Of a DNA stretch of 21,202 nt, positions 6,566 to 21,062 are shown one piece after another (positions within the stretch are counted from its first letter, which is position 1; each line of letters begins with the position of its first letter). The stretch lies in NCBI GenBank assembly GCA_016218905.1, contig JACRCS010000632.1, forward strand, positions 1 through 21,202, in the 5' to 3' direction. The notes under the pieces are model-generated. The model saw only the letters and a list, made by a program, of their open reading frames with translations, made no database searches and was not told the DNA's origin. Position numbers and translations under genes: made by a program. The stretch comes from Deltaproteobacteria bacterium. GTDB taxonomy: Bacteria; Desulfobacterota_C; Deferrisomatia; Deferrisomatales; JACRMM01.

Positions 6566-6966
6566 AAGACAGGGGACGAGGCCGGGGCCCGCTGCGCGTC
6601 CTCTTGGCTGAGGACAGCGCGGTGAACCGGCTACTCGGCAGGGAGCTCCTCACCAGAGACGGGCACCAGGTGGTCACCGCCGAGAACGGGCGCGAGGCCC
6701 TGGAGAAGCTCGCCCGCGAGCCCTTCGACGTCGTGCTCATGGACATCGAGATGCCGGAGCTCTCCGGTCTGGAGGCGACGCGGGCGATCCGCGCGGGCGC
6801 GGTCCCGGGCGTGCCGCGGGACCTCCCCATCGTCGCGCTCACGGCCCATGTGCTTCGGGGCGACAGGGAGCGCTTTCTGGCGGGCGGCATGGACGACTAC
6901 CTCGCGAAACCGATCGACTTGGGAGAGGTCTACCGGGTCTTGGACGAGATCGCCGCCAGAAAGTAG
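6457..6966 (+). CDS. Receiver-domain portion of the hybrid histidine kinase, out of frame
   Basis: In the frame beginning GAG at 6457 the sequence continues the kinase ATPase domain (EIWAESETGQGSTFRFALEF). A linker and then a complete receiver domain follow: LRVLLAEDSAVNRLLGRELL (acidic pocket ED), DVVLMDIEMPELSG (phosphoacceptor Asp), IVALTAHV (Thr) and GMDDYLAKPID (Lys). It ends at TAG 6964-6966. No ATG, and no start with a clear ribosome site, lies between the break and the receiver, so it is probably not a separate gene. With one G added to the run at 6451-6457, residues 5225-6966 form one hybrid kinase of about 580 residues. Confidence 0.8.
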   Translation, partial: EIWAESETGQGSTFRFALEFGLCEGACEAALTEGNLKDRGRGRGPLRVLLAEDSAVNRLLGRELLTRDGHQVVTAENGREALEKLAREPFDVVLMDIEMPELSGLEATRAIRAGAVPGVPRDLPIVALTAHVLRGDRERFLAGGMDDYLAKPIDLGEVYRVLDEIAARK

Positions 6967-6978
6967 TGTCCCAACTAC

Positions 6979-6996
6979 GGCCTCCGCGGGGAGGCC
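6979..6996 (+). terminator. Perfect hairpin after the hybrid kinase gene
   Basis: GGCCTCC, loop GCGG, GGAGGCC: a perfect 7-bp GC-only stem, 13 bases after the kinase stop codon. No T-tract follows, so intrinsic termination is uncertain. Confidence 0.4.
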
Positions 6997-7288
6997 GGGA
7001 GTGAACAGGGACGCTACGTCCCCCTGGGGTTCCGCGCTCGCATGTCAGTTCATCGTCTACCCCCTCGCGCGCTGGCCCTGGGCCATCCGACATGGAAAGG
7101 CTCTCCGGCCAAGATTACATTGGCTTGACGGCCTCTTAGAGCGTGGCGGTCGCAGGCGGGTTCCCGAAGAACTTCATGTGCGCGCGGACCATGCAGGGCG
7201 CTCTGATGCTAGCGTGGGAGGAACTCGGGCAAGTCAACGTCTGCTGGACAGAGGCCGATAGGTTGGTTACACTTCCGCGCGCCTTGGT

Positions 7289-7334: not shown

Positions 7335-7967
7335 ATGAAGAAGGCACTTGAGAGCGCAACAGTTGTTCTTGTCGCCCACCAGTTCAATCCATCTATTATA
7401 GATAAGCTGTGGCTCGTCAAGAATCTCATAGTTGAAGAAGGCGACTTGCTCGAAGGGGGCGTACAGGCGCCCGTCATTTCGCAAGTTGACACTCGCAAGT
7501 TCCGACTTCAGGTCATCCCTGAACAGTTGACATTTGAACTTAAAGATAGTGAGGATGGCTCGGCGTTATCGAGTCTTGGCCTATTGGTGAGTAGACTCCC
7601 GGAGACGCCATATAGTGCAATGGGGCTTAACTTTCTATGGCGGGCGCAGCCGGACGACAACGATCACGCCAGGCTTTCGAGAGAGCTATTCTTCAGAGCG
7701 GATTTGCCGCTATATCGTGCCTTCGATGAAGGGAATAGCTGCTTTGGGGCCTACTTTAGCAAAGGGTGGTTCGACGGAAGCAGACTAAAACTCGATGTCA
7801 AGCCTGTTGACGCGGCCGGCCGGAAACTAATCCAATTCGCGTTTAATTTTCACTTAGATCTGACTTCGCAAGAACGCCCGGCGGAGATCAATGCATTTCT
7901 AAAGAGATGGACTCAGGCACGAGAGATGTCCTTCGAGATTTTCACGTCAGCAGTGGGGGAGCGCTGA
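7335..7967 (+). CDS. Uncharacterised protein, first gene of the HEPN operon
   Basis: I do not recognise this 210-residue protein with confidence. It has no signal peptide or membrane segment and looks like a mixed alpha/beta cytoplasmic protein. The N-terminal part reads ATVVLVAHQFNPSIIDKLWL, which loosely recalls a conserved hypothetical family whose members begin with an FNP-type motif (from memory, unverified). Later motifs are ELFFRADLPLYRAF and a hydrophobic strand KLIQFAFNFHLDL. The start ATG 7335 follows AGGGG at 7327-7331. Codon use (ATA, TTA, CTA, AGA) and lower GC differ strongly from the flanking genes, indicating horizontal acquisition. Its stop overlaps the next gene as TGATG, so the two should be translated in a fixed ratio and their products may interact. 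Confidence 0.75.
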   Translation: MKKALESATVVLVAHQFNPSIIDKLWLVKNLIVEEGDLLEGGVQAPVISQVDTRKFRLQVIPEQLTFELKDSEDGSALSSLGLLVSRLPETPYSAMGLNFLWRAQPDDNDHARLSRELFFRADLPLYRAFDEGNSCFGAYFSKGWFDGSRLKLDVKPVDAAGRKLIQFAFNFHLDLTSQERPAEINAFLKRWTQAREMSFEIFTSAVGER

Positions 7968-8653
7968 TGGAAGGATCGGGATCAACGTCGACGACTGAAA
8001 TGGATCGATACCAGGGGCTGCTGGGGCAGCTCGTGCTTCGAGATCTCATGAGTCAAGGGAGCACGAACATCAGCAACAAACTCGGCGAGAGATCCATCGT
8101 TCGAACCTACCCTCAAGACGAGTGGCCCGCCAAGTCACTACTAGTGAACCTGCATCTTCAGAGAGAGCCGGGCTTCTCCTGCGCCGGTTGGGCCCAACCG
8201 CGGGCCTTTGAGCGAAGAAGTAACCCTGTAACTGACTTACTCACAGAATGGATTCGCTTCACAGAAGACCACGACACTTCCTTTCCATTTTACCCGTCCG
8301 AGGCGGTCGTAGCTCGTTTCGCGCATCATGGAGTACATCGGTCCGCAGCTTTAGGTGAGTACTACGAGTTCCTCAACACGGAGGAGATAGGCAGCTACCT
8401 GCGGCGAAATAAAGACCTTGAAGGTCACCTCATCGCGATTGCACAAAAGATTCCTGAATATCTCCCTGCAACGACTCTGCGATTAGAACTGTCAGACAAG
8501 GACCAGAATCTGCCTGAACAGCTGGTCATCTATTTGATACTGCCGGAAGATGCTCCCAATCCAGCTGAAGCCTTGTTTAGAATGGACATGGAATGGTGGC
8601 TCCCCCTCAAGTCAGAGCTCGGCAAGAGAGTCTCGATAAACTTTGATTTCTGA
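7967..8653 (+). CDS. Uncharacterised protein, second gene of the HEPN operon
   Basis: Protein of 228 residues, unidentified. ATG 7967 is chosen because it overlaps the previous stop as TGATG and has GGGGGAG seven bases upstream. An in-frame ATG at 7907 lies inside the preceding gene and lacks support. The N-terminal half (RYQGLLGQLVLRDLM, TYPQDEWPAKSLLVNLHLQ) and a middle section with FPFYPSEAVVARFAHHGVH match nothing I know. The last 60 residues (TTLRLELSDKDQNLPEQLVI, EALFRMDMEWWLPL, KRVSINFDF) resemble, from memory, small conserved hypothetical proteins with an FDEEWWL-type motif often encoded just before HEPN genes. If so, this is that domain fused to an extra N-terminal part. There is no signal peptide. 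Confidence 0.75.
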   Translation: MEGSGSTSTTEMDRYQGLLGQLVLRDLMSQGSTNISNKLGERSIVRTYPQDEWPAKSLLVNLHLQREPGFSCAGWAQPRAFERRSNPVTDLLTEWIRFTEDHDTSFPFYPSEAVVARFAHHGVHRSAALGEYYEFLNTEEIGSYLRRNKDLEGHLIAIAQKIPEYLPATTLRLELSDKDQNLPEQLVIYLILPEDAPNPAEALFRMDMEWWLPLKSELGKRVSINFDF

Positions 8654-9030
8654 TGGGCTTCGACTGGTCGGAGTATCTAGAACTAGCAAAGAACCTCGCC
8701 GGCCTTTCACAAACAAACGCTGGGGAGGAAGCGCGCAATCGGGCTGCAATAAGCAGAGCCTATTACGCCGCTTTCGGTAAAGCTTGCGAATTCCTGGAGT
8801 CGAGGGACGGCAAGCGGATCCCTCGAGACGGCAGCGCGCACGGGACGGTGATCCAAGCCTTCGAAGACCATCGAGACCTGAACAGGCAGCGCATCGGCGA
8901 AAACCTAAAGCGCCTGCGACAGCACCGAAACAAAGCGGACTATGATTCGATCGCGGACCCCAAGCGACCCCGCCTACAGACCATCGTCGACATCACCGTG
9001 GATGTTCTCCGGAGCCTTCGTTCCATCTAG
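8653..9030 (+). CDS. HEPN-domain protein
   Basis: All-helical protein of 125 residues with HEPN hallmarks (PF05168-like). Helix 1 is FDWSEYLELAKNLAGL, then AAISRAYYAAFGKACEFL, a short HGTVIQAF helix, and LKRLRQHRNKADYD at residues 85-98. HEPN proteins act as RNases, or as helical partners of nucleotidyltransferases in toxin-antitoxin and defence modules. The active-site motif of RNase members is Rx4-6H. Here the Arg92-Asn93 pair is followed by KADY with no His, so nuclease activity is doubtful. No nucleotidyltransferase is nearby; instead it follows two uncharacterised genes, joined by a TGATG overlap at 8651-8655. Its TAG stop begins the 35-bp sequence duplicated around the downstream inserted element. 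Confidence 0.85.
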   Translation: MGFDWSEYLELAKNLAGLSQTNAGEEARNRAAISRAYYAAFGKACEFLESRDGKRIPRDGSAHGTVIQAFEDHRDLNRQRIGENLKRLRQHRNKADYDSIADPKRPRLQTIVDITVDVLRSLRSI

Positions 9031-9062
9031 ATCCTCCAATTTGCCACGTGCGCGGAGAGCAG
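9028..9062 (+). repeat. Left copy of 35-bp duplication around element copy 1
   Basis: Begins TAGATCCTCC and ends GGAGAGCAG. It is identical base for base to 9185-9219 across 35 positions; the bases on either side differ (C/A before, T/A after). It overlaps the HEPN stop codon, so the original target lay at the 3' end of that gene. Confidence 0.85.
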
Positions 9063-9184
9063 TTGCCGTAGGGTGGGCGGTTCTCGCGCAACGAGGTTCG
9101 CCCACGCGTGGGGCAACCCGCCTGCGGCGGAACGCCCCACCCTACGCTCAGGGGCAGATGCGCAAACAATTGTGACGCTCTGTA
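9063..9184 (+). mobile_element. Short hairpin-plus-tail inserted element, copy 1
   Basis: The core, 9066-9184 (119 bp), matches 20229-20347 except for one base (A at 9091, G in the other copy). Three extra bases, TTG, precede the core in this copy only. The first 80 bp form a large imperfect cruciform with outer arms CGTAGGGTGGG (9067-9077) and CCCACCCTACG (9136-9146), plus an inner inverted repeat around 9095-9118. A 38-bp asymmetric tail follows, with a second small palindrome ACAATTGT. It encodes no credible protein. The outer-arm motif resembles widely dispersed REP-like palindromes (from memory). Locus-specific 35-bp direct repeats on both sides mark it as an insertion. Confidence 0.8.
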
Positions 9185-9219
9185 TAGATCCTCCAATTTG
9201 CCACGTGCGCGGAGAGCAG
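9185..9219 (+). repeat. Right copy of 35-bp duplication around element copy 1
   Basis: Exact repeat of 9028-9062 at a 157-bp offset. The bases after it (ACCCCTAAAG) are the natural continuation of the pre-insertion sequence. Confidence 0.85.
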
Positions 9220-9596: not shown

Positions 9597-9612
9597 CGGC
9601 ACGAAGGTTGCT
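9597..9612 (+). promoter_or_regulatory. Candidate sigma-54 (-24/-12) promoter
   Basis: CGGCACGAAGGTTGCT compares with consensus TGGCACG-N4-TTGCW. The GG (9598-9599) and GC (9610-9611) are separated by exactly 10 bases, and only the leading T is missing. Predicted start is about 9623, giving a leader of about 120 nt to the first gene. Functional use is inference. Confidence 0.5.
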
Positions 9613-9742
9613 GACTCCTAGCGCATGCGGAAAGCGGCTGGAGCGGCCGTGGGCTCGCGGCGTTGACAACTCCGGCGGTTGTGATCCGCTTGCGTGCTCC
9701 ATGGGCACCGGAAGCGCTCCGACGGGTGTTGCGGGAGGTCGG

Positions 9743-10318
9743 GTGGACCCTTTGACGTGCGCTGCCTTTCTGATCCTCGCCTTCGTTCTGGCCGGCGTGG
9801 CCCAGACCGCGTGGTTTCGAAGCTCGCGGTCGCGCGGTCTCGCGATCCCCCTGGACCTGGGCGCCAAGCTCCGGGGCCGGCGGCTCCTCGGGGACAACAA
9901 GACGCTGCGGGGCTTCGCGGTGATGCTCCCGGCGGCGGCCGCGTCCTTCCTCCTCCTCCGGGCGCTCGCCTCCCTCGATCCCGTCCTGGCCGGCCGGCTC
10001 TGGCCTCTGAGCCCCGCTGCCTACGCGCTCCTCGGGCTCGCCGCCGGGCTCGGGTTCATGCTGGGGGAGCTCCCCAACTCCTTCCTGAAGCGCCAGCTCG
10101 ACATCCCGCCCGGCGAGGCCGCGGGGAAGCGCTGGGCCCGGCTCGTCTTCTTCGCCGTCGACCGGCTCGACTCGATCGCCGGAATGCTCCTGGCGGTGAG
10201 CCTCCTCGTGCCGACGAGCTGGCAGACCTGGGCCTACGTCGCGCTGGCGGGGCCCCCGATCCACTGGTCCTTCAGCCTCGCGCTCTACCGGCTCGGCGTG
10301 AAGAAGAGGCCCGCGTGA
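9743..10318 (+). CDS. CarS-like CDP-lipid synthase (integral membrane cytidylyltransferase)
   Basis: Membrane protein of 191 residues in the CDP-archaeol synthase (CarS, formerly DUF46) / CdsA superfamily. Members use CTP to activate a phosphorylated lipid as CDP-lipid for head-group attachment. The family signature is the GRRLLGDNKTLRG stretch (GDNKTLRG at about residues 50-57), followed by GELPNSFLKRQLDIPPGE and FFAVDRLDSIAG, the usual late Asp-rich motif. It has four or five hydrophobic segments. GTG 9743 is chosen because GGGAGG precedes it and the product then begins directly in the first membrane helix; ATG 9701 would add 14 poorly conserved residues. It is the first gene of the lipid operon, and its stop overlaps the next start as GTGA. 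Whether the substrate is isoprenoid, ether or acyl is unknown. Confidence 0.8.
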   Translation: MDPLTCAAFLILAFVLAGVAQTAWFRSSRSRGLAIPLDLGAKLRGRRLLGDNKTLRGFAVMLPAAAASFLLLRALASLDPVLAGRLWPLSPAAYALLGLAAGLGFMLGELPNSFLKRQLDIPPGEAAGKRWARLVFFAVDRLDSIAGMLLAVSLLVPTSWQTWAYVALAGPPIHWSFSLALYRLGVKKRPA

Positions 10319-13035
10319 GCGCCCCATCCTTCGTCTGCCCCCTCGACCGCGTCGAGGACGAACGCTCGGCCGGCGGGAAGGCCTGGAACCTCTTCCGGAT
10401 GCTGCGCCTCGGCGTGCCCGTCCCGCCCGGTTTCGTGGTGACCGACCTCGCCTTCCAGACCTTCCTGGACCGGAACGGTCTCCGCCCGGAGCTCGCCCGG
10501 ATCCTCGCCGGCCTCGACCCCGCGAACCTCGACGGCCTGAACCGAGCGGCGGGTTCGATCCGAGAGCTCCTGGGCACCGCCGGCCTCCCGGAGCAGATCC
10601 GCAGCGAGCTCCGGTCCGCTTGCGCGTCGCTCCTGCCGGGCCGCCCGCTCATCGTTCGAAGCTCCGCAGTCGGCGAGGATTCGGGACGTGCCTCCTTCGC
10701 CGGTCAGCTCGATTCGTTTGCCGATCTCGGCTCGCCGGAGGCGGTCGAGGAGGCCCTCCTGGGGTGTTGGGCTTCCTGCTGGTCGCCGAGGGCGCTCCAC
10801 TATCAGCTCTCCCGCGGCGCTCGGATCGAGCGGATGGGCGTCGTCGTGCAGGAGCAGGTCCGGTCCAGGGCGGCCGGTGTGCTCTTCACGGTCTCTCCCG
10901 AACCCTCCCCGGACGGCCCCGTGATGCTCGGCGAGTACTGCCTGGGGCACGGAGAGGCGTTGGTGGCCGGCCGCATCGATCCAGGCCGCTTCACCGTCTC
11001 CCGGCAGTCCTTCGCCTGGCGCCTCCTGGAGACGCCGGAGCGACCCCCGGCGGACGCCGGGGCGGGCCTCGACGAGGCGCACGTTCGGAGCCTCCACGGA
11101 ATCGGACTGCTGCTGGAGCGGGCCTTCGGCGGGCCGCAGGACGTGGAGTGGGCGATCGATCCGGAGGGGCAGGTCCGGGTGGTCCAGTCCCGCCCGATCA
11201 CGGCCGCGGCTCGCCCCGGTAGGGGAGGGCCCAGGCAGCCGACCGGGCGTCCGGTCGTCTGGTCCAACGCCAACATCAACGAGAACTACCCGGACCCCGT
11301 CTCCCCCTTCCTCTACTCCGTCGCCGCCGACGGGTACTACCACTACTTCCGAAACCTGGCCCTCGCCTTCGGGATCTCACGACGGCGCGTCCGGGCCATG
11401 GAGGGCGCCCTGCGCGGCCTCGTCGGCGTCCACGGCGCCCGCCTCTACTACAACCTCACGAACATCCACGCGGCGCTGCGGATGGCCCCCTCCGGGGAGC
11501 GCCTGATCGAAGCCTTCAACCTCTTCGTCGGGGCTTCGGAACGCCCCGGCCAGACTGCGGGCGCCGAGAGCTTCGGGAGGAACGGACGCGTGGGGCGGTG
11601 GGCGGAGCTCGCCCGGATCGCCTTCCAGTCCGCTTCGCGCTTCCTCTTCCTCGAGAGAGGGGTGAGGGCCTTCGAGCGGACCGTCGACGCGTACGCCGCC
11701 CGCACCCGCCCCGAGACGCTGGCCGAGGCCGACGTCCCGGCGCTCCGGGAGTTGCTCGGAGGGGTCCTCGAGATCCGCTGCCACCGTTGGACCGGCGCTT
11801 CCCGGGCGGACGCGGCGTCGATGATCGCCTACGGGCTCCTGGAAGCCGCCGTGGGGCGGGCCTTCCCCGAGCAGGGGCGCTCGGCCCGGCACAACAAGCT
11901 CCTGCAGGGGCTCCCGGAGCTCGTCAGCGCCCGGCCGGTCGTCGAGCTCTGGAGGCTCTCCCGCCGGATCCGCGCCGACGAGAAGCTCCTCGAGCTCTTC
12001 GCGCCGGCGGCGGGCGCGAAGGCGGCCGAGCCCCGGGACGTGTGGGCGACGCTCCAGGCCGAGCGGCGCTTCGCCGCGTTTCGGCAGGAGTTGGACCGCT
12101 TCCTCGAGGAGTGGGGCTTCCGCGGGTCGGGAGAGCTGATGCTCACGGTAAAGAGCTTGCAGGAGGAGCCGAGCGCACTCCTCGCGCTGCTCGCGAGGTA
12201 CGCGTCGCTCGAGGGGGAATCCCCCGGCGACGCCCTCCGCCGGCAGGCCCGGGAGCGGGAGGCGGAGACGCGGCGCGTCCGAAAGGCGCTCGGCCGGCGA
12301 AGGCTCCTGGGGCGCCTCCCGTGGCCCAACCAGGGGACCCTCGCGACGGTCGTGCTGCGGTGGACGCAGCACGCGGTCGGATTGCGGGAGCGCGCGCGGC
12401 TCAAGCAGTCGCTCCTCTACAGCCGTTGCCGCCTCGTTCTGCTCCGCCTGGGGGAAAAGCTCGCGGCCCTCGGCTACCTCCCGGGAGCCGAGGACGTCTT
12501 CTTCCTCACCCACCAGGAGCTGACGGCGCTCCTCTCCGGCACGGCCCTGTTCCCGGGAGGGATGGCCGAGCTGGTGAGAGTGCGCCGAAGCGAGCACGCG
12601 CGCCTCAGCCGCCTCGCTCCTCCCGAGACCCTCACGCTTCCGGAGGGCGGCTACTTCTCCCCTCCGGAGGGCGACGGCGAAGGCCCCGAGAGTCCGCCGG
12701 AGGGGCGCCCCGGCGAGGTGCTGACGGGCGCGGGAGCCTGCGGCGGCAGGATCGAGGCGCGGGCGACGGTGCTCAAGGAAGTCTCGCAGGCCGATCGCCT
12801 CGAGGCCGGTGACGTCCTCGTGACCCGCCAGACGGACCCGGGCTGGACGCCGGTCTTCTTCGTCGTCGGCGGCCTGGTGGTGGAGAGGGGAGGGATGCTC
12901 TCCCACGGCGCGATCCTGGCCCGCGAGTACGGGATCCCCACGGTCGTCGGGGTGCGGGACGCGACGCAGAGGATCCGCTCCGGTCAGAAGGTCCTCGTGG
13001 ATGGAGAGGCCGGCCGTGTCGAGCTCCTGGCTTGA
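10315..13035 (+). CDS. PEP-synthase-like phosphotransferase (ATP-grasp plus C-terminal phospho-His domain)
   Basis: Protein of 906 residues. The N-terminal third is a PEP synthase/PPDK ATP-grasp domain: GGKAWNLFRMLRLGVPVPPG near the start, IVRSSAVGEDSGRASFAGQ at about 110-130, and PQDVEWAIDPEGQVRVVQSR at about 275-295. The last 100 residues are the swivelling phosphohistidine domain: VTRQTDPGWTPVFFVVGG, then GGMLSHGAILAREYGIPTVV with His864. About 480 residues between them match nothing I can name. This order, with the His domain at the C-terminus, is that of rifampicin phosphotransferase and related enzymes, where the middle domain binds the acceptor. Classical PEP synthase has the His domain centrally. 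The reaction may therefore be transfer of phosphate from ATP to a lipid or small-molecule acceptor; that is inference. GTG 10315 overlaps the previous stop as GTGA, with GAAGAGG upstream. Confidence 0.85.
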   Translation: MSAPSFVCPLDRVEDERSAGGKAWNLFRMLRLGVPVPPGFVVTDLAFQTFLDRNGLRPELARILAGLDPANLDGLNRAAGSIRELLGTAGLPEQIRSELRSACASLLPGRPLIVRSSAVGEDSGRASFAGQLDSFADLGSPEAVEEALLGCWASCWSPRALHYQLSRGARIERMGVVVQEQVRSRAAGVLFTVSPEPSPDGPVMLGEYCLGHGEALVAGRIDPGRFTVSRQSFAWRLLETPERPPADAGAGLDEAHVRSLHGIGLLLERAFGGPQDVEWAIDPEGQVRVVQSRPITAAARPGRGGPRQPTGRPVVWSNANINENYPDPVSPFLYSVAADGYYHYFRNLALAFGISRRRVRAMEGALRGLVGVHGARLYYNLTNIHAALRMAPSGERLIEAFNLFVGASERPGQTAGAESFGRNGRVGRWAELARIAFQSASRFLFLERGVRAFERTVDAYAARTRPETLAEADVPALRELLGGVLEIRCHRWTGASRADAASMIAYGLLEAAVGRAFPEQGRSARHNKLLQGLPELVSARPVVELWRLSRRIRADEKLLELFAPAAGAKAAEPRDVWATLQAERRFAAFRQELDRFLEEWGFRGSGELMLTVKSLQEEPSALLALLARYASLEGESPGDALRRQAREREAETRRVRKALGRRRLLGRLPWPNQGTLATVVLRWTQHAVGLRERARLKQSLLYSRCRLVLLRLGEKLAALGYLPGAEDVFFLTHQELTALLSGTALFPGGMAELVRVRRSEHARLSRLAPPETLTLPEGGYFSPPEGDGEGPESPPEGRPGEVLTGAGACGGRIEARATVLKEVSQADRLEAGDVLVTRQTDPGWTPVFFVVGGLVVERGGMLSHGAILAREYGIPTVVGVRDATQRIRSGQKVLVDGEAGRVELLA

Positions 13036-13813
13036 GCCCCTCTTCGCCTACCTGAGGACGCGCCTGCCGGCGCGCCTCTATCTGCCCTGCACCGCCTTTC
13101 TGGTGCTCGCCAGCCTCGGCGGAAGCCCGTCCGCCGGAGCGGCTCGACTGGTCTGGGCGGGTGTGCTCGGCTGGGCCCTGCTTCTCCAGTTCCGGCTCCT
13201 CGACGACCTCTGCGATCTCCCCCACGACCGGCGGGCGCATCCGGAGCGCGTGCTCGTCCGGGCCGAGTCCTTGACTCCCTTCCGGGTCCTCCTGGGCCTC
13301 TCCTTCGCGGCCAATCTGACCCTCCTCCTCGGCCGTCCCGGCCCGGCACGCGCCTGGACCTTCCTGGCGCTCACCGCGGCGGCGGGGGCCTGGTACGGGA
13401 TCGGCCGGCGGATCTTCCCCGGCAGGGTCCTCGGCTATCACGTCGTGCTGGGGAAGTACCCGGTCTTCGTGCTCCTGCTCTCCGGAGAGGTCCGAGACCG
13501 GTGGCGGCTCGGCCTCTCCATGGCGCTGGTGTACCTCTGCTTCTGCATCTACGAGGCCCTCCACGACGAGGAACTGGCGGCTTCCGCCTCGGCCGCCCGG
13601 GCGCTCGCGGCCGAGGCCGTCGCGCTCTTCGCCGTCGCGGAGCTCACGGCCCTGGCCCTGCTCGGAAGCGGCGGTTCCGCGGCGGTGCAGGGGCTGCTCG
13701 GCCTCGGCGCCGTGCCGGCCCTGGTGCTCGCCCGCCGCGGTCGGCCCGAGGCGACCTACGTGCTCTTCGGGCTCGGCTTCGCCCTGGTGGCGAACCTCTC
13801 CATGGGAGAATGA
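13001..13813 (+). CDS. UbiA-family prenyltransferase
   Basis: Polytopic membrane protein of 270 residues with about eight hydrophobic helices. The first Asp-rich motif is FRLLDDLCDLPHDRRAHPER (Asp68, Asp69, Asp72, Asp76), a variant of NDxxDxxxD in which the leading Asn is replaced. The second is YEALHDEE near residue 184-191. UbiA enzymes move an isoprenoid diphosphate chain onto an aromatic or, in archaeal DGGGP synthase, onto a glycerol hydroxyl to form an ether. The subfamily with this DDLxDxxxDRxAHPER motif is common in bacteria, with mostly untested substrates. ATG 13001 overlaps the upstream gene by 35 bp. GTG 13016 has a better ribosome site (GGAGAGG, six bases upstream) and may be the true start. 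The stop forms ATGA with the next gene. Confidence 0.85.
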   Translation: MERPAVSSSWLEPLFAYLRTRLPARLYLPCTAFLVLASLGGSPSAGAARLVWAGVLGWALLLQFRLLDDLCDLPHDRRAHPERVLVRAESLTPFRVLLGLSFAANLTLLLGRPGPARAWTFLALTAAAGAWYGIGRRIFPGRVLGYHVVLGKYPVFVLLLSGEVRDRWRLGLSMALVYLCFCIYEALHDEELAASASAARALAAEAVALFAVAELTALALLGSGGSAAVQGLLGLGAVPALVLARRGRPEATYVLFGLGFALVANLSMGE

Positions 13814-14832
13814 AGGATGAAGGTATGAATTCGGTCCATTCGGTCCACTTCGTCCATTCCGTCCATGGCTCGACTGAGGCCCGGACGACGAACGGCCCAG
13901 GCGTTCGCGTCGAGGAGGTCCCCTGCCTCGCCTGCGGTTCGCGGCGCAGCCGGCCTCTGCTCGTCGCCGAGGACGACCTCACCGGAAAGCCGGGCCGTTT
14001 CCCCTTCGTCGTCTGCGCCGAGTGCGGGCTCGCCTACCAGAGTCCGCGGGTCGAGCTCGGGAGCATCAAGCTCTACTACGACGACGAGTACATCGCCCAC
14101 CGGAAGAAGCGCAGCTGGGGGCCGCTGGGCTTCCTCGTGGACCGCGCCCTGGACCGGCTCGACCGGCGCAAGCTCGAGCTCGTGGCGCGGTGGGTGGACC
14201 TCCGGCGTCCCGGCGCGGCCCTCGACGTCGGCTGCGGCGCGGGCACGTTCCTGCGGAAGCTTCAGTCGCTCCACGGCTTCCACCCCGTGGGGGTCGACTT
14301 CGTCGACCTGTCGCAGCTTCCCGGGTTCGACACCCTGGAGTTCCACTGCGGGCTCTTCTACGACGTCGAAGTGGGGCGGGAGCGCTTCGAGCTCATCACC
14401 ATGTGGCACTTCCTGGAGCACGACTACGACCCCGCCCGAAGCCTCCGCCGGGCTCGGGAAGCGCTGAAGCCCGACGGCCGCCTCGTGATCGAGGTCCCCC
14501 GGCTCGACAGCCTCTCCTACCGCCTGTACGGAGACCGCTGGCCCGGGCTCCAGGCGCCCCAGCACACCGTCCTCTTCAGCAAGGAGACCCTGCTCCGGCA
14601 GCTCGAGAAGAGCGGCCTCGAGGTGCTCGAGTACCTGCCCTACGGCGCCTATCCGGCGTACTTCTACCTCTTCGCCGGAGCCGCGTTCAAAGTCCTGAAG
14701 GGGAGGGGACTGGACCTCCGGAGAGCCGTGGTCCCCTACTTCCTCGGGCAGGTCCTCCTCGCCCCGCTGCTCGTCTTCGAGCGGCGGCTCAACCTCGCCA
14801 TGCAGACCGTCGTCTGCGGGAGGAGAGCGTGA
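13810..14832 (+). CDS. SAM-dependent methyltransferase with N-terminal zinc ribbon
   Basis: Protein of 340 residues. A CLAC (Cys39, Cys42) and CAEC (Cys69, Cys72) pair forms a probable zinc ribbon. It is followed by a class I methyltransferase fold: ALDVGCGAGTFLRKL (motif I, Asp139), HPVGVDFVD, FELITMWHFLEHDYDPARSL and LKPDGRLVIEVP. The C-terminal 90 residues are hydrophobic and may touch the membrane. This ribbon-plus-methyltransferase type occurs in many lipid and polysaccharide clusters, and its acceptor cannot be read from sequence. ATG 13810 overlaps the UbiA stop as ATGA; ATG 13825, with GAAGGA at good spacing, is equally possible. The first 20 residues (SVHSVHFVHSVH) come from a 9-bp tandem repeat and are unlikely to belong to the fold. 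The stop overlaps the acyltransferase start as GTGA. Confidence 0.85.
   Translation: MKDEGMNSVHSVHFVHSVHGSTEARTTNGPGVRVEEVPCLACGSRRSRPLLVAEDDLTGKPGRFPFVVCAECGLAYQSPRVELGSIKLYYDDEYIAHRKKRSWGPLGFLVDRALDRLDRRKLELVARWVDLRRPGAALDVGCGAGTFLRKLQSLHGFHPVGVDFVDLSQLPGFDTLEFHCGLFYDVEVGRERFELITMWHFLEHDYDPARSLRRAREALKPDGRLVIEVPRLDSLSYRLYGDRWPGLQAPQHTVLFSKETLLRQLEKSGLEVLEYLPYGAYPAYFYLFAGAAFKVLKGRGLDLRRAVVPYFLGQVLLAPLLVFERRLNLAMQTVVCGRRA
13830..13865 (+). repeat. Four 9-bp tandem units at the start of the methyltransferase gene
   Basis: TTCGGTCCA, TTCGGTCCA, CTTCGTCCA, TTCCGTCCA. Preceded by GAAGGATGAAGG, another short direct repeat. Together they encode the repetitive SVHSVHFVHSVH. Being multiples of three, copy-number changes would keep frame. 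Confidence 0.8.
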
Positions 14833-15704
14833 CCGCGCTGCAAGCTCCCGCGTCCCCGGCCCTTCCGCGCGACCTGGCGGCCTGGAGAGAGGACCGCCTC
14901 GAGCGGCGCCGCCTGTGGCTCGCCTCGCCGAGGGGACGGGCCTACGTCGCCTGGTCCGCCCTGGCGGGCTTCGGGCTCCTGAGCGCCGCCGCCGCCGTCA
15001 CCCTCGGGGTCGCGGCGGTCACGCTCTTTCGCAAGCGGCGCTTCTACACCGAGGTGATGGCGAAAGGGCTCGCCCGGGCCATCCTGCGCGCCAGCGGCGT
15101 CGAGCTCGTCCTCCACCGGGACCGCCCGTTCCCGCAGACCCAGACGATCTACACCGCCAACCACACTTCGACGCTGGACGCCTTCATCCTCCTCGCCCTG
15201 GGGCTCCCGAACACGCGGTACTTCCTGAAGGGGGAGTTTCGGAAGATCGTCCCCCTGGGGATCATGACGTACCTGATGGGGACCTTCTTCACTCCCCCGC
15301 AGTCGCGGCCCGACCTGCGCGTGCGCTGCTTCCAGAGGGCCGAACGGGTGCTGCGGCGCACCGGGGACTCGGTCTACTTGAGCCCCGAGGGGACGCGGGT
15401 CACCGACGGCACCATCGGCCCCTTCAACAAGGGCACGTTCCACCTCGCGACGAACCTCCAGGTCCCGATCGTCCCGCTCTACATCGACATCCCGCCCGAC
15501 GTGAACCCCGGGACCGGCTACGCGGGAATGCCGGGCACCGTCCACGTGTACGTCCTCCCCGAGGTCCGGACCGAGGGGTGGAGGCTCGAGGAACTGCTCG
15601 CGAACAAGGAGCGGGTGCGGGAGGTGTACGTCCGCTTCCACGAGGAGCTGGGGGCCCGCCGCCTCGGCGCCCGCCCCGAGGAGCCGCGGAGTCCTCTCCC
15701 ATGA
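14829..15704 (+). CDS. PlsC-like 1-acylglycerol-3-phosphate acyltransferase
   Basis: Protein of 291 residues with a cytoplasmic N-terminus and a hydrophobic anchor at about residues 38-62 (AYVAWSALAGFGLLSAAAAV region). The acyltransferase domain follows: motif I NHTSTLDAF (His112, Asp117), a middle motif around YFLKGEFRKIVPLG, motif III YLSPEGTR, and motif IV VPIVPLYI. These are the catalytic HX4D and glycerol-phosphate-binding elements of the LPLAT superfamily, which place an acyl chain on lysophosphatidate or a similar alcohol. GTG 14829 is chosen because of the GTGA overlap and the strong GGGAGGAGA upstream. With the ligase/ACP genes next to it, the acyl donor may be acyl-ACP. Exact acceptor unknown. 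Confidence 0.9.
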   Translation: MTALQAPASPALPRDLAAWREDRLERRRLWLASPRGRAYVAWSALAGFGLLSAAAAVTLGVAAVTLFRKRRFYTEVMAKGLARAILRASGVELVLHRDRPFPQTQTIYTANHTSTLDAFILLALGLPNTRYFLKGEFRKIVPLGIMTYLMGTFFTPPQSRPDLRVRCFQRAERVLRRTGDSVYLSPEGTRVTDGTIGPFNKGTFHLATNLQVPIVPLYIDIPPDVNPGTGYAGMPGTVHVYVLPEVRTEGWRLEELLANKERVREVYVRFHEELGARRLGARPEEPRSPLP

Positions 15705-17461
15705 CCCGACCTCCGCCCGCCTCCCTCGTCGAGCTCCTCCGCCGTCGCGCCGAGGGGGAGACCGACCGCGTCGCCTACACCTTCCTCGCGGACGGCGAGA
15801 CGGAGCAGGAGCGCGTCACGTACGGCGAGCTCGACCGCCGCAGCCGCGCCATCGCGGCCCTGCTCCGGCGCCGCCACCGGCCCGGCGAGCGAGCGCTCCT
15901 CCTCTACCCCTCGGGGCTCGACTTCATCGCCGCGTTCTTCGGCTGCCTCTACGCGGGCCTCATCGCCGTGCCCGCCTATCCGCCCCGGCCCAACCGGGAG
16001 CCTTCCCGCCTCCGCGGCATCCTGCGGGACGCGGAGCCGGCGGCCGTCCTCGGGACCGAAGCCGCGGTCGAAGGGCTCGCGGAGCTCGCCGCCGTCCTGC
16101 CGGAGCTCACGGGCGCCCGGTGGCTCGCGACGGACCACCTGCCGCTCTCCGAGGCCGAGCACTGGGAAGACCCCTCCCTCGGCCCGGACGCGACCGCCTT
16201 CCTCCAGTACACCTCCGGATCGACGGCGGAGCCCAAGGGGGTGATGGTGAGCCACGCCAACCTGCTGCACAACCTCGCCTACGCGAACCACGTCGAGGAG
16301 AACGACGCCTCGAGCGTCGGCGTCTCGTGGCTGCCCTTCTATCACGACATGGGCCTCATCGAAGCGGTGCTCCAGCCGGCCTACGGTGGGTACCCGGCGT
16401 TCCTGATGGCGCCGGCAGCGTTCCTCCAGGAGCCCCTGCGTTGGGTCGAGGCGCTCAGCCGGTACCGCGGGACCAACAGCGGAGGCCCGAACTTCGCCTT
16501 CGAGCTCTGCGTCCGGAAGACCGCGCCGGAGGAGCGCGCCCGGCTCGACCTCTCGAGCTGGCGCGTCGCCTACAACGGCGCGGAGCCGATCCGCTGGGAG
16601 ACGCTCGAGCGGTTCTACCGGGCCTTCCAGGGCTGCGGCCTGCGCTGGCGCTCTCTCTACCCGGTGTATGGGCTCGCCGAGGCCACCCTCCTCGTCTCCA
16701 GCGGCCGGCGGAGCTACGAGCCGAGGCCGGTCATGCTCGATGCCGAGCGGCTGGCCGAGGGCCGGGCGGTCGAGCCGCGGCCCGGCGCGGCGGCGGCCCG
16801 CTTCGCCGCCTGCGGGCCCTGCGGCTTCGGCACGAAGGTCGCGATCGTCCGGCCCGAGACGCGAGAGCGCTGCGGACCCGGCGAGATCGGCGAGATCTGG
16901 GTGCAGGGGCCGAGCGTCGCCCAGGGCTACTGGGGGAGGCCCGACGAGAACCGCCTGACCTTCGGGGCGGAGCTCGCGGAGGGCGAGGGGCCTTTCCTCC
17001 GGACGGGCGACCTCGGCTTTCTCGACGGGGACGACCTGGTCGTCACGGGGCGCCTGAAGGACCTGATCGTCGTTCGGGGGAGGAAGCACTACCCGCAGGA
17101 CATCGAACGGACCGTCGAGGCCTGCCACGCCTCGATCCGGACCGGGTGCGTGGCCGCTTTCGGGCTCGAGGCCGGAGGGGAGGAGGGCTTCGGCGTCGCG
17201 GCCGAGGTCGAGCGCACCGCCCTCCGGGCGAAGAACGGCGCCGGTCTGGACGGGGTGCTGGGCGCGGTGCGGGAGGCGGTCGGCGCGCAGCACGAGCTCC
17301 CGCTCCGGGCGGTCTTCCTCCTTCGGCCGGGGAGCCTTCCGAAGACCTCGAGCGGCAAGCTCCGGCGTCACGCCTGCCGGGAGGGGCTGCGCGCCGGCAG
17401 CCTCTCCGCCGCCGCGTGCTGGGTCGAGCGGCCGGCTACCGGCGGGGGAGTCCGGAGTTGA
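15701..17461 (+). CDS. Fatty-acyl-AMP ligase (FAAL)
   Basis: Adenylate-forming enzyme of 586 residues that activates a fatty acid with ATP and transfers it to an acyl carrier protein. Core motifs are LQYTSGSTAEPKGVMVSHAN at about 168-187, WLPFYHDMGLI, NGAEPIR, VYGLAEATLLVSS, FLRTGDLGFLDGDDLVVTGR and LKDLIVVRGRKHYPQDIE, ending with PKTSSGKLRR carrying the catalytic Lys. The SWLPFYHDMGLI and GRKHYPQDIE sequences are typical of FAALs rather than acyl-CoA synthetases. It overlaps the acyltransferase stop as ATGA and the next gene's start as TTGA. The next gene opens with an ACP domain, the natural acceptor. Confidence 0.93.
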   Translation: MTRPPPASLVELLRRRAEGETDRVAYTFLADGETEQERVTYGELDRRSRAIAALLRRRHRPGERALLLYPSGLDFIAAFFGCLYAGLIAVPAYPPRPNREPSRLRGILRDAEPAAVLGTEAAVEGLAELAAVLPELTGARWLATDHLPLSEAEHWEDPSLGPDATAFLQYTSGSTAEPKGVMVSHANLLHNLAYANHVEENDASSVGVSWLPFYHDMGLIEAVLQPAYGGYPAFLMAPAAFLQEPLRWVEALSRYRGTNSGGPNFAFELCVRKTAPEERARLDLSSWRVAYNGAEPIRWETLERFYRAFQGCGLRWRSLYPVYGLAEATLLVSSGRRSYEPRPVMLDAERLAEGRAVEPRPGAAAARFAACGPCGFGTKVAIVRPETRERCGPGEIGEIWVQGPSVAQGYWGRPDENRLTFGAELAEGEGPFLRTGDLGFLDGDDLVVTGRLKDLIVVRGRKHYPQDIERTVEACHASIRTGCVAAFGLEAGGEEGFGVAAEVERTALRAKNGAGLDGVLGAVREAVGAQHELPLRAVFLLRPGSLPKTSSGKLRRHACREGLRAGSLSAAACWVERPATGGGVRS

Positions 17462-20160
17462 GAGAGACTCAGGGCGCGCCGGCCCTTTCGGCCCTCCTGA
17501 CCTCGCTGGCGGCCCAGTGTCTGAAGGTCCCGGCGGGCGCGCTCTCCCGGAGCGTTCCCCTATGCCGCCACGGGATGGACTCCCTGGCGCGGGTCGAGCT
17601 CACGGCGGCCCTGGAGGCCGCCCTCGACCGCCGCCTGCCGGACTCCCTGCTGATCGAGCATCCCGACCTCGAGAGCCTGGAGCGCTACCTCCGCTCCGGT
17701 CCGGCGGCGGGGCAGGCTCCCGCGGGCGGGCTCGCCCGGATGCGCGCGGACAGCCGCCTGCCCGCCGAAGTCCGGCCCCCGCAGGCACCCCGGCCCGTGG
17801 GGGGCGAGGAACCGGTCCTGCTCACCGGCGCGACCGGCTTCCTGGGAGGATACCTCCTCCGGGCCCTCCTCGAGCGAGGCCGCCGACGCGTGCTCTGCCT
17901 GGTCCGAGCGGGCGCGCGACGAGGCGCGAAGGAGCGCCTGCGCGGGAGCCTCGAGCGCTCGGGCCCGTGGGACCCCTCCTGGGACGCCCGCCTGGAGGTC
18001 GTGGAGGGCGACGTCGCCCTGCCGCTCCTGGGCCTCTCCGAAGCCCGCTACGCCCGCCTCGCCGCCGAGGTGGGCGAGGTCTACCACTGCGCGGCCGAGG
18101 TGGATTGGGCCTCCCCCTACGGAGCGCTCCGGGCGGCCAACGTCCTCGGAACCCTGGAGTGCCTGCGGCTCGCCTGCGCCTGCCGAACAAAGGGGCTTCG
18201 CTTCGTCTCCACCGTCGCCGTCTGTTACTCGACGTCCGGGCCCCGGGAGATGGATGAGGACGAGGACCCGTTCCCGTACCTGCCGGGCCTCCACCTCGGC
18301 TATGCCCAGACGAAGTGCGTGGCCGAGGCCCTCGTGCGGGAGGCCGGGGAGCGAGGCCTCCCCGTGACGATCCTGCGGCCTTCGCTTGTCGCCGGCGACC
18401 GCGCGTCGGGCGCGTCGAGCGAGAGCGACCTCCTCTCGCGGCTCCTCCGGGGCGTCGTCCGGATGGGCACGGCGCCCGACCTCGACTGGACCGCCGACTG
18501 TCTGCCCGTGGATTACCTGGCCGGGGCCGTGCTGCACCTCGTCGGACAGCGCACGTCGCCCAGGGTCCTCCACCTGGTGAACCCCGCGGCGCGCCACTGG
18601 CGGGAGCTCGTCCTCTGGCTGAACCTCTACGGCTACCCGGTGCGCCTCGAGCCGTACCGGGAGTGGGCGGCACGGGTGGCGACGGACCCCGAAAACCCGC
18701 TCTGGCCCCTTCGGGGCTTCTTCCTCGGGAAGCCGGCCTCCGAGGGCGGCCTGACGCTCCCCGAGCTCTACGAAGACGGCCGCAGGACCCGCCTGCGGGC
18801 GAGCCGCACCGAGGAAGCCCTGCAGGGTGCCGCCCTCGGGAGCCCGAGGCTCGACGCGCGCCTGCTCGAACGCTACGTAGACGGGTTCATCTCGCGAGGC
18901 CTGCTTCCGTCGCCGAGCGCCGTCCGGCGCCCCGCAGGCCCGATTGGTGGGCGGGGAAGTCCTGAGCGGGAGGCGGCGGCACTGGACGCCTCCTTCTTCG
19001 CCGGCCTGCTCCGAGGCCCGGACGGCGAGGGGGCCGCCGAAGTCCGCCAGGCCCTCCCGGTGCGCGACGGGTCCGACCGGAGCATCATCTCGGAGCTCAC
19101 TTCGTGGCTGCACGGTAGCCCCGCCGGGCTCCGGCAGTACCGGCTGGGGGTCGAGAGGCGAGGGGAGCTGGAGTGGGTCTCGGCGGTGGTGAAACGGAAG
19201 GCGAGCGACGAGGAGGCGATCGACGTCGCCCGGCGGGTCGCCGAGCAGTGCAGCCCGGCGCTGGGCCGAGCCTTCGAGCGCTTCGGGCGGGAGCTCGGGC
19301 TCGCGGGCTCCCACGTGCGGGAGCTCGGAGTCTACGGGCAGGACGACCTGCGCTTTCGTCGCCACGCCCCGGCCCTGTACGGCGTCCGGCGCGACGACGC
19401 CCGGCAGGAGTGGACGCTGGTGCTCGAGGACGTCTCGGGGCTCGAGCTCCTGGACTCGGCCGACGACGCCTCGGGCTGGGAAACGGAGCACGTCGAGGCC
19501 GCGGTCCGGGGGCTCGCGGAGCTTCACGCCATCTGGTACGGGCGGGAGGAGGAGCTGCTCCGGAACGCCTGGCTGGGGCCCGTCACCTCGGCTCGCCGCC
19601 GCGCGGAGATGGCCGAGCTCTGGGCCGCGCTGGCCGAGAACGCCGCGAGCCGGTTCGCCTCGGTGCTGGGGGAGGGCGTGCGCGCTCTCCAGGCCCGGCT
19701 CGCCGAGGACGTGGGGGACCGGTGGCGTAGGCTCGAGAGCAGGCCGCGGACGCTCATCCACAACGACTTCAACCCCCGGAACATCGCCCTCCGAACGGGC
19801 GAGGCGGGGCGACGCCTCTGCGCCTACGACTGGGAGCTGGCGACGCTCGGGCCGCCCCAGCACGACCTGGCGGAGCTCCTCTGCTTCGTTCTTCCCCGGA
19901 GCTTCGGCCGCCCGGAAGTCGAGCACTACCTGGCCCTCCACCGGGAGGCCCTCCGGGACTCCTCCGGCGTCGGGGTCGACCTCCCTGCCTGGGCCGACTG
20001 GGAAGAGGGCTTCCGCCTCTCCCTCCACGACCTGCTGCTCGACCGGCTCGCCCTCTACGCGATGATCGGCCGCTTCAAACCCCAGCGGTTCCTCGACCGG
20101 GTCGTACGCACCTGGGGCGCGCTCTACGAGCTCTATCCCCTGGTGTCCCCGTGCCGTTAG
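17458..20160 (+). CDS. ACP - thioester reductase - APH-type kinase fusion
   Basis: Three-part protein of 900 residues. Residues 1-80 are an acyl carrier domain with the phosphopantetheine Ser42 in CRHGMDSLARVEL. Residues 118-480 are a short-chain-dehydrogenase-type thioester reductase: NAD(P)-binding LLTGATGFLGGYLLRALLER (122-141), YHCAAEVDW, STVAVCYS and YAQTK (Tyr282, Lys286). It would release the ACP-bound acyl group as aldehyde or alcohol. About residues 520-900 form an aminoglycoside/choline-kinase-like phosphotransferase with HNDFNPRN (768-775, catalytic Asp770, Asn775) and YDWELATLG (Asp791). The first two domains are common together; a kinase on the end is unusual. The start is TTG 17458, overlapping the FAAL stop as TTGA, with GGGGGAG seven bases upstream. 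No in-frame ATG precedes the ACP motif. Confidence 0.9.
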   Translation: MRETQGAPALSALLTSLAAQCLKVPAGALSRSVPLCRHGMDSLARVELTAALEAALDRRLPDSLLIEHPDLESLERYLRSGPAAGQAPAGGLARMRADSRLPAEVRPPQAPRPVGGEEPVLLTGATGFLGGYLLRALLERGRRRVLCLVRAGARRGAKERLRGSLERSGPWDPSWDARLEVVEGDVALPLLGLSEARYARLAAEVGEVYHCAAEVDWASPYGALRAANVLGTLECLRLACACRTKGLRFVSTVAVCYSTSGPREMDEDEDPFPYLPGLHLGYAQTKCVAEALVREAGERGLPVTILRPSLVAGDRASGASSESDLLSRLLRGVVRMGTAPDLDWTADCLPVDYLAGAVLHLVGQRTSPRVLHLVNPAARHWRELVLWLNLYGYPVRLEPYREWAARVATDPENPLWPLRGFFLGKPASEGGLTLPELYEDGRRTRLRASRTEEALQGAALGSPRLDARLLERYVDGFISRGLLPSPSAVRRPAGPIGGRGSPEREAAALDASFFAGLLRGPDGEGAAEVRQALPVRDGSDRSIISELTSWLHGSPAGLRQYRLGVERRGELEWVSAVVKRKASDEEAIDVARRVAEQCSPALGRAFERFGRELGLAGSHVRELGVYGQDDLRFRRHAPALYGVRRDDARQEWTLVLEDVSGLELLDSADDASGWETEHVEAAVRGLAELHAIWYGREEELLRNAWLGPVTSARRRAEMAELWAALAENAASRFASVLGEGVRALQARLAEDVGDRWRRLESRPRTLIHNDFNPRNIALRTGEAGRRLCAYDWELATLGPPQHDLAELLCFVLPRSFGRPEVEHYLALHREALRDSSGVGVDLPAWADWEEGFRLSLHDLLLDRLALYAMIGRFKPQRFLDRVVRTWGALYELYPLVSPCR

Positions 20161-20193
20161 TTCGGCCTCACCACCAGCAGGGCAGGGGCCAAC

Positions 20194-20228
20194 TAGCAGG
20201 AAGGAACTTTCCGAACGGGACACTCGAG
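20194..20228 (+). repeat. Left copy of 35-bp duplication around element copy 2
   Basis: Begins TAGCAGGAAGG and ends CACTCGAG. It matches 20348-20382 at 34 of 35 positions (C/T at the fifth base from the end). It is unrelated to the duplication at copy 1 except for the initial TAG and final AG. Confidence 0.85.
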
Positions 20229-20347
20229 CCGTAGGGTGGGCGGTTCTCGCGCAGCGAGGTTCGCCCACGCGTGGGGCAACCCGCCTGCGGCGGAACGCCC
20301 CACCCTACGCTCAGGGGCAGATGCGCAAACAATTGTGACGCTCTGTA
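20229..20347 (+). mobile_element. Short hairpin-plus-tail inserted element, copy 2
   Basis: 119 bp, 118 of them identical to 9066-9184 and in the same orientation. Outer hairpin arms are at 20230-20240 and 20299-20309, followed by the 38-bp tail ending CTCTGTA. It sits between the ACP-reductase-kinase gene and the phosphatidyltransferase gene. Removing it with one duplication copy would shorten that gap from 236 to 82 bp. Confidence 0.8.
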
Positions 20348-20382
20348 TAGCAGGAAGGAACTTTCCGAACGGGACACTTGAG
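20348..20382 (+). repeat. Right copy of 35-bp duplication around element copy 2
   Basis: Repeat of 20194-20228 at a 154-bp offset with one mismatch. It runs directly into the ribosome-binding region of the next gene. Confidence 0.85.
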
Positions 20383-20396
20383 ACCGGGAGCGCGGG

Positions 20397-21062
20397 ATGA
20401 CTCCGGCGGGTTACCTCCATCCTCGAAACATCCTCACCTACGGCTCGATGGCCACCGGGCTCCTGGCCGTCCTGGCCGCGAGCGAGCTCGGCTCCTGGCA
20501 CGCCTCGGGGGCCCTCCTCGCGCTCTCGGTCCTCCTCGACACCTTCGACGGGCGCTTCGCCCGGCTGTGGCCCCGCACCGCCGACGAACGCGCCTTCGGC
20601 GTCGAGCTCGACAGCCTCTCGGATGCGGTGGTCTTCGGCTTCGCGCCCGCCGTCTGCCTCGGGCTGCTCTCCGACTTCGGCCCGGCCGCGCTCGCCCCGC
20701 TCGTCTGGTCGGCCGCGGCACTGGCCTACCTGAGCGCCGCCGTGACGCGGCTCGGCTGCGACAACCTCCACCAGGTCGGGGCAGACCGCTTCGTCGGCCT
20801 CCCGACGACCCTCGCCGGCCTGCTCCTCTCCACGCTCTTCCTCGCGAGGCCCCTCCCGTGGGCTTCGGCCCTGGTGCTCGCCGCCCTGGCCGCCGGGATG
20901 CTCGCTCCCCTGCCGGTGCCTCGCGCGAGGGGCAAGATCCTCGTCGTCTTCGGCCTCTGGATCCTGGGGGTTCTCGCGTGGCACACCGTGGAAGCGGGAC
21001 GAGAGCTCTCCGCCGCATCCACCGTGCCCCAGGTCCGCTCTACGGCGGGGCCGAACCGATGA
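20397..21062 (+). CDS. CDP-alcohol phosphatidyltransferase, PssA-like
   Basis: Membrane protein of 221 residues. It has the family signature DxxDGxxAR...GxxxDxxxD: LLDTFDGRFAR (Asp48, Asp51) and GVELDSLSD (Gly68, Asp72, Asp76), followed by VVFGFAPAV. The latter resembles the SFGVAPA stretch of type II phosphatidylserine synthases. Such enzymes replace CMP on a CDP-lipid with an alcohol such as serine. The distance between AR and the central Gly is 11 residues rather than the usual 8-9. About six hydrophobic helices follow the signature. ATG 20397 has GGGAG six bases upstream. CarS, the likely source of CDP-lipid, opens the preceding operon, so this is probably the last visible step. The stop overlaps the next start as ATGA. 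Confidence 0.87.
   Translation: MTPAGYLHPRNILTYGSMATGLLAVLAASELGSWHASGALLALSVLLDTFDGRFARLWPRTADERAFGVELDSLSDAVVFGFAPAVCLGLLSDFGPAALAPLVWSAAALAYLSAAVTRLGCDNLHQVGADRFVGLPTTLAGLLLSTLFLARPLPWASALVLAALAAGMLAPLPVPRARGKILVVFGLWILGVLAWHTVEAGRELSAASTVPQVRSTAGPNR

Follow-up and report, generated by a model that had tools for sequence, protein, structure and literature searches.

A REPIN-type repeat flanked by 35-bp target duplications at two sites of one bacterial contig

The 21,202-bp stretch of DNA analysed here (the window) contains a short palindromic element enclosed by two copies of a 35-bp sequence, which raises the question of what kind of element this is and how it could have been inserted with so long a duplication. 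The element occupies 119 bp (9066-9184, forward strand) and lies between two occurrences of TAGATCCTCCAATTTGCCACGTGCGCGGAGAGCAG at 9028-9062 and 9185-9219 that are identical at 35/35 positions; three further bases, TTG (9063-9065), separate the left occurrence from the element. The first-pass annotation called this locus copy 1, implying a second, and we located that second copy at 20229-20347, again on the forward strand and with 35-bp repeats of its own at 20194-20228 and 20348-20382 (34/35 identical), with no extra bases at its left end. The two 119-bp cores differ at one base (118/119 identical), both copies are intergenic (2 in 21 kb) and the right-hand repeat is followed by ACC in each case. 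The right end of the element is fixed and the left end differs by 3 bp, as the annotation had observed: TTG is found in copy 1 only, and the tail ending CTCTGTA is identical in both.

The long direct repeats flanking both copies are real target duplications and not chance matches. When the left flank of one GTAG doublet (an inverted pair of GTAG-tagged REP hairpins) was compared with the right flank of another, the top repeat score was 11 in 294 control pairs, and larger sets of mismatched flanks gave top scores of 13 (597 pairs) and 12 (999 pairs). Set beside arms of 35/35 and 34/35, mismatched controls that reach at most 13 uphold the earlier claim of an inserted non-autonomous element with an unusually long 35-bp duplication, which is present in 2/2 window copies. 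The 35-mers of copies 1 and 2 agree at 10/35 positions and are thus unrelated, indicating that the duplicated sequence is the target and not part of the element. Since the two targets share as many as 3 bp on the left (TAG) and 2 bp on the right (AG) that may be part of the element, the true stagger lies between 30 and 35 bp.

An inverted pair of GTAG-tagged REP hairpins makes up most of the element, at 9068-9145 in copy 1 and 20231-20308 in copy 2, both on the forward strand; in copy 1 an outer stem (9068-9072/9141-9145) is accompanied by hairpins at 9073-9105 and 9108-9140. The sequence GTAGGGTGGGC occurs on the forward strand at 9068 and 20231, and in both copies GTAGGGTGGGG closes the pair from the opposite end, on the reverse strand. 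A GTAG tetranucleotide therefore stands 5' of an imperfect palindrome, as in REPINs and GTAG REP elements, and the two inverted REPs fold as one hairpin structure in RNA and DNA predictions alike, which is the arrangement that defines a REPIN. The 78-nt doublet had an RNA fold z score of -4.70, with none of 200 shuffles equally stable, and DNA folding of 9063-9184 gave z scores of -3.36 and -3.18 for the two strands. The whole 119-nt element also folds strongly as RNA (z -3.94), and the opposite strand folds equally strongly. The remainder is a 39-nt tail (9146-9184, forward strand), the same in both copies, which ends in CTCTGTA and contains a weak subterminal hairpin; its fold on its own is insignificant (z -0.75). 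Terminal inverted repeats are absent, the best match between the ends being 11/25 compared with a shuffled mean of 9.0 (P 0.12). The element is best read as a REPIN-type repeat without an enzyme, consisting of a 78-bp inverted GTAG REP pair and a 39-bp tail, and the tail is best read as captured flank. A third GTAG...CTAC inverted pair in the window (6963-7017) is probably due to chance and had no flanking duplication among the top-scoring repeats listed.

In a study that describes REPIN dissemination as unresolved, the HUH enzyme TnpA_REP, or RAYT, is the presumed agent of REPIN movement (PMC8266576). As described there, TnpA_REP cuts at C|T, with the attacking 3' end becoming joined to the T, and sometimes acts at distant sites; one variant of the enzyme also cuts C|A (PMC8266576). 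In the window, the duplication starts exactly at C|TAG at both targets (CCATC|TAG for copy 1, CCAAC|TAG for copy 2). At the far end of both duplications, AG at positions 34-35 places a bottom-strand C|T at position 34, one base inside the boundary, and ACC follows. Among 4,564 control repeats, C|T was found on either strand in 15.9% and on both strands in 0.6%. Our scoring script assigned C|T on both strands to copy 1 and on the top strand only to copy 2, the latter because the internal mismatch cuts the exact run short; the full 35 bp of copy 2 ends in AG. On the top strand the element itself has GTA|T and not C|T at its 3' end, which counts against a RAYT reading; C|T is present at the bottom-strand junctions. 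Across 402 ends of REP pairs, CT was enriched 2-5 nt beyond the pair (0.08-0.15 versus 0.056), which counts for little because other dinucleotides are uneven there too (GA 0.24, CC 0.17). The motif consists of two bases only, and since CT had been noticed before the published exact position of C|T was consulted, these comparisons are partly after the fact.

As a yardstick for REPINs in general, we assembled a set of 281 distinct non-window GTAG doublets, at 225 loci of which some are homologous, from viral contigs, 398 genomes, two single-genome searches and fetched regions; the window pair at 6963-7017 was excluded. The REP-pair layout was present in 48 viral-contig stretches and in 19 of the 398 genomes. 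Long direct repeats adjoined the doublet in only two of the 281 cases, at loci L043 (39 bp) and L057 (27 bp). Three further high scorers were set aside because they are not single duplications next to the doublet: the repeat of L169 (score 21) lies 99 bp away from it, that of L271 (79) belongs to a repeat-rich region and that of L249 (16) to a REP array. Collapsing similar flanks left 249 non-window doublets, among which near repeats of at least 8 bp occurred at 10 (about 3.5 expected from the 1.4% in controls), of at least 9 bp at 5 (about 1.2 expected from 0.5%) and of at least 12 bp at 2 (0 in 4,000 control pairs). Repeats of at least 9 bp being few and about 1.2 of them expected, the 9-bp repeat of L255 could be chance. 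A boundary C|T was found in four of these five (L043, L057, L251 and L255); the 10-bp repeat of L175 is without C|T. Neither the L255 nor the L043 flanks matched phage records.

Of the two long cases, L043 has the arrangement flank-REPIN-flank-REPIN. At L057 (501-694) a REPIN was inserted immediately next to another one that differs from it in sequence, and the 27-bp repeat ends within the GTAG of this neighbour. Because the second repeat adjoins another REPIN in both, rearrangement of a REPIN cluster is possible at these loci. A REPIN family represented at L013, L035, L042, L045, L046, L051 and L054 has constant ends, which read CCCTACAAAAC|T for one strand and CCCTACGAAGC for the opposite strand; despite these clear C|T ends, members of the L013 type have no duplication, none scoring above 9 in the duplication test. 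Within this family, L051 and L045 differ in length by 35 bp, and an extra AGTTTTGTAGGGTGGGCTTT... REP unit lies beside the REPIN in L051 only. The rarity of duplications at GTAG doublets elsewhere indicates that a long duplication belongs to the window variant or to young insertions and not to REPINs generally. Copies without flanking duplications had been named beforehand as the observation that would count against the first-pass interpretation: within the window there are none, both copies being duplicated, and among the 281 doublets elsewhere they are the rule, with long duplications at L043 and L057 only and shorter ones of 10 bp at L251 and, perhaps, of 9 bp at L255.

The clearest independent evidence that a REPIN can duplicate its target comes from L251, where a REPIN at 2096-2158 is missing from three related contigs (L256, L247 and L162) whose flanks could be compared. 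The empty sites contain CGGGGAAAAG once, and in L251 this sequence stands on both sides of a unit composed of CCAT, the REPIN and a 13-nt tail, so that the insertion amounts to a 10-bp duplication with three empty sites. L162 agrees with L251 downstream, where L256 and L247 differ from it, and the empty state is therefore probably ancestral; alternatively, a deletion between the 10-bp repeats would leave an identical empty sequence. Comparison of L251 with its empty sites thus indicates that REPIN insertion can duplicate the target and carry a tail along, and this one insertion contradicts the expectation, stated in the annotation, that REP elements duplicate nothing. L251 was the sole clean case among the length differences examined across loci. 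Two REPIN-rich genera, as well as L057, offered no readable empty sites, the intergenic regions being too diverged or occupied by REP clusters in both species.

Taken as a whole, the element is best read as a variant of the REPIN with a long target duplication and as a putative member of a RAYT system. We favour, at about even confidence, an account in which a REPIN variant was copied into the two sites by a RAYT/TnpA_REP-like HUH tyrosine transposase acting in trans, with duplication of the target. The identity of the enzyme is conjectural because the 15 ORFs scanned in the window gave no transposase. The same 35-bp spacing in two insertions of one element argues for this account, and the lack of such a duplication at most GTAG doublets elsewhere argues against it. 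Of the mechanisms listed in the annotation, the unusual enzyme acting in trans comes closest, the inverted GTAG REP pair that would link it to RAYTs not having been named there.

Under the RAYT account, the enzyme would be placed by the REP hairpins on both strands and would cut after the C at the top-strand C|T; the bottom-strand C|T, which lies about 34 bp away in the targets, would presumably be cut as well. The 3' ends of the element could then attack the 5'-phosphotyrosine, each becoming joined to a T, by a joining chemistry known from in vitro work on TnpA_REP (PMC8266576); junctions of this form are present in the window, and the same chemistry may have produced them. Host polymerase would finally fill the staggered gaps and so produce the 35-bp duplication. 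Use of either C|T or C|A in the donor (...CTACGGCAAC or ...CTACGGC on the bottom strand) may account for the presence of TTG in copy 1 only. A single strand transfer at C|T followed by strand-displacing synthesis of about 35 nt would be an alternative route to the same product. We suggest more tentatively, and with appreciable doubt, that REPINs spread in general by a two-strand reaction, in which a dimer or pair of RAYTs, directed by the REP on each strand, would cut both target strands at C|T and transfer the two 3' ends of the element, and in which the spacing of the C|T sites would set the duplication length (10 bp in L251, 27 bp in L057 and 35 bp in the window). If true, HUH transposases would gain a new mode of action; their IS200/IS605 relatives are regarded as working on a single strand and leaving the target unduplicated. 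Any mechanism has to account for the junctions of young insertions whose duplications can be read and for which an empty site is available, and such insertions make the long-open question of how REPINs spread directly testable.

The main rival explanation treats the element as a MITE mobilised by a DDE transposase that acts in trans and makes a very long duplication, as in the IS1202 group; staggered cuts 35 bp apart would be followed by gap repair. The occurrence of 35 bp in both insertions suggests a fixed stagger such as this enzyme would make, and duplications of 16-28 bp are described for the IS1202 group (PMC10132070). Nevertheless, we consider it unlikely: the terminal inverted repeats of an IS1202-type element are missing (11/25, P 0.12), the duplication of 35 bp, or at least 30 bp if the shared end bases are the element's, falls outside the 16-28 bp range, the two copies differ by 3 bp on the left, and the element contains a REPIN for which a DDE transposase would have no need. 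The repeats could also have arisen by rearrangement of a cluster, with a REPIN inserted without duplication, the flank and REPIN then doubled in tandem and the second REPIN lost to leave flank-REPIN-flank. Tandem repeats of REPIN plus flank are known in P. fluorescens (PMC3116915), and the L043 arrangement is what the intermediate would look like; yet exactly 35 bp at both sites, extending from the fixed 3' end to the 5' end, would demand two identical two-step accidents, and the two REPINs of L057 differ in sequence, which makes this explanation improbable for the window.

Two further mechanisms raised by the annotation gained no positive evidence. Retroposition, in which a structured RNA of 119 nt would be copied by target-primed reverse transcription, would accommodate a constant 3' end adjoining the shared target motif CCAWC|TAG, a variable 5' end and the strong fold of the element as RNA, and still has rather less than a one-in-ten claim on our belief: no reverse transcriptase was recognised among the 15 scanned ORFs, no Rfam family matches at gathering score, the other strand folds just as strongly and C|T appears on the second strand as well. 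Nor would target-primed reverse transcription be expected to give an equal length of 35 bp twice. Cas1-like integration, which copies a target of repeat length, is very improbable, even though 35 bp falls within the range of CRISPR repeats, because no cas gene was recognised in the 15 scanned ORFs and the targets are unrelated (10/35); the 119-bp insert is also far longer than CRISPR spacers. Equally remote is an assembly artefact, in which overlapping contig ends would have been joined around a repeat. The window appears to be one single 21,202-bp contig, but the internal one-base mismatch of copy 2 and the three extra bases that copy 1 has on its left side make an overlap unlikely and show that one k-mer was not simply counted twice.

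Comparison with known systems places the element nearest to REPINs, the presumed substrates of RAYTs, with which it shares GTAG on both strands, the inverted REP pair, the hairpin fold, an intergenic location, the lack of an enzyme and C|T at the target and left junction. It differs from them in the 35-bp duplication at both copies, in the 39-nt tail that forms part of the mobile unit and in the GTA|T top-strand end. Like IS200/IS605 elements (HUH Y1), it has no terminal inverted repeats, carries subterminal hairpins and sits at a target that would be cut at a short motif; that family is described, in the account we draw on, as being without larger target duplications (PMC2817692), whereas the window element has 35 bp in 2/2 copies. 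The IS1202 group, the long-duplication part of the IS1202 family, shares an unusually long target duplication with it and is distinguished by a length of 16-28 bp, terminal inverted repeats and a DDE transposase of its own (PMC10132070); in the same source, ISAjo2-type relatives have terminal inverted repeats of 24-26 bp and those of the IS1202 group are similar (PMC10132070). The GTAG-tagged REP super-family likewise comprises GTAG-tagged palindromes and dimers, often near the 3' ends of ORFs, and the word duplication is absent from the main text of the paper describing it (PMC3733652). Literature on REPIN, RAYT or BIME in combination with duplication yielded, in the portions of text available, no report of REPIN target duplications; one paper describes an IS481 element inserted in REPs (PMC11708052).

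Close relatives of the element were sought in several collections, by scans that require exact words or close similarity and may therefore miss diverged relatives. Viral contigs gave 0 matches to the tail, head and head-tail patterns, and the sole match of the two-end pattern in genome contigs (L001) was rejected as a different repeat beside a chance GACGCTCTGTA. Distant blastn searches returned short matches only, in 6 plasmid records covering at most 30% of the element and in 1 phage record covering 20%. The 8 matches in 398 Pseudomonadota genomes (E 0.0035-0.008, 21-37 bases covered) were at chance level. In Rfam, 0 families reached gathering score and one miRNA appeared at E 0.11.

Finally, the gene context shows that the insertion of copy 1 spared the ORF upstream: the first three bases of its duplication, from 9028, are the TAG stop codon of an ORF at 8653-9030, so this reading frame remained intact after insertion. 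A Pfam scan of 15 ORFs (6 + 9) out of the 76 mechanical ORFs in the window detected no RAYT, other transposase, reverse transcriptase or Cas protein. For one window protein, the best other match was 50% identical, and the top identity was 55%, across 85% of its length. At 7335-9030, three ORFs that adjoin or overlap one another (210, 248 and 125 aa) had no Pfam or NCBIfam match. The region from 9608 to 21062 holds a run of lipid-like biosynthesis genes, encoding a CarS-like protein, a PPDK/PEP-utilising enzyme, a methyltransferase, an acyltransferase, an AMP-binding enzyme, a carrier with an NAD_binding_4 reductase, a kinase-like protein and a CDP-alcohol phosphatidyltransferase.
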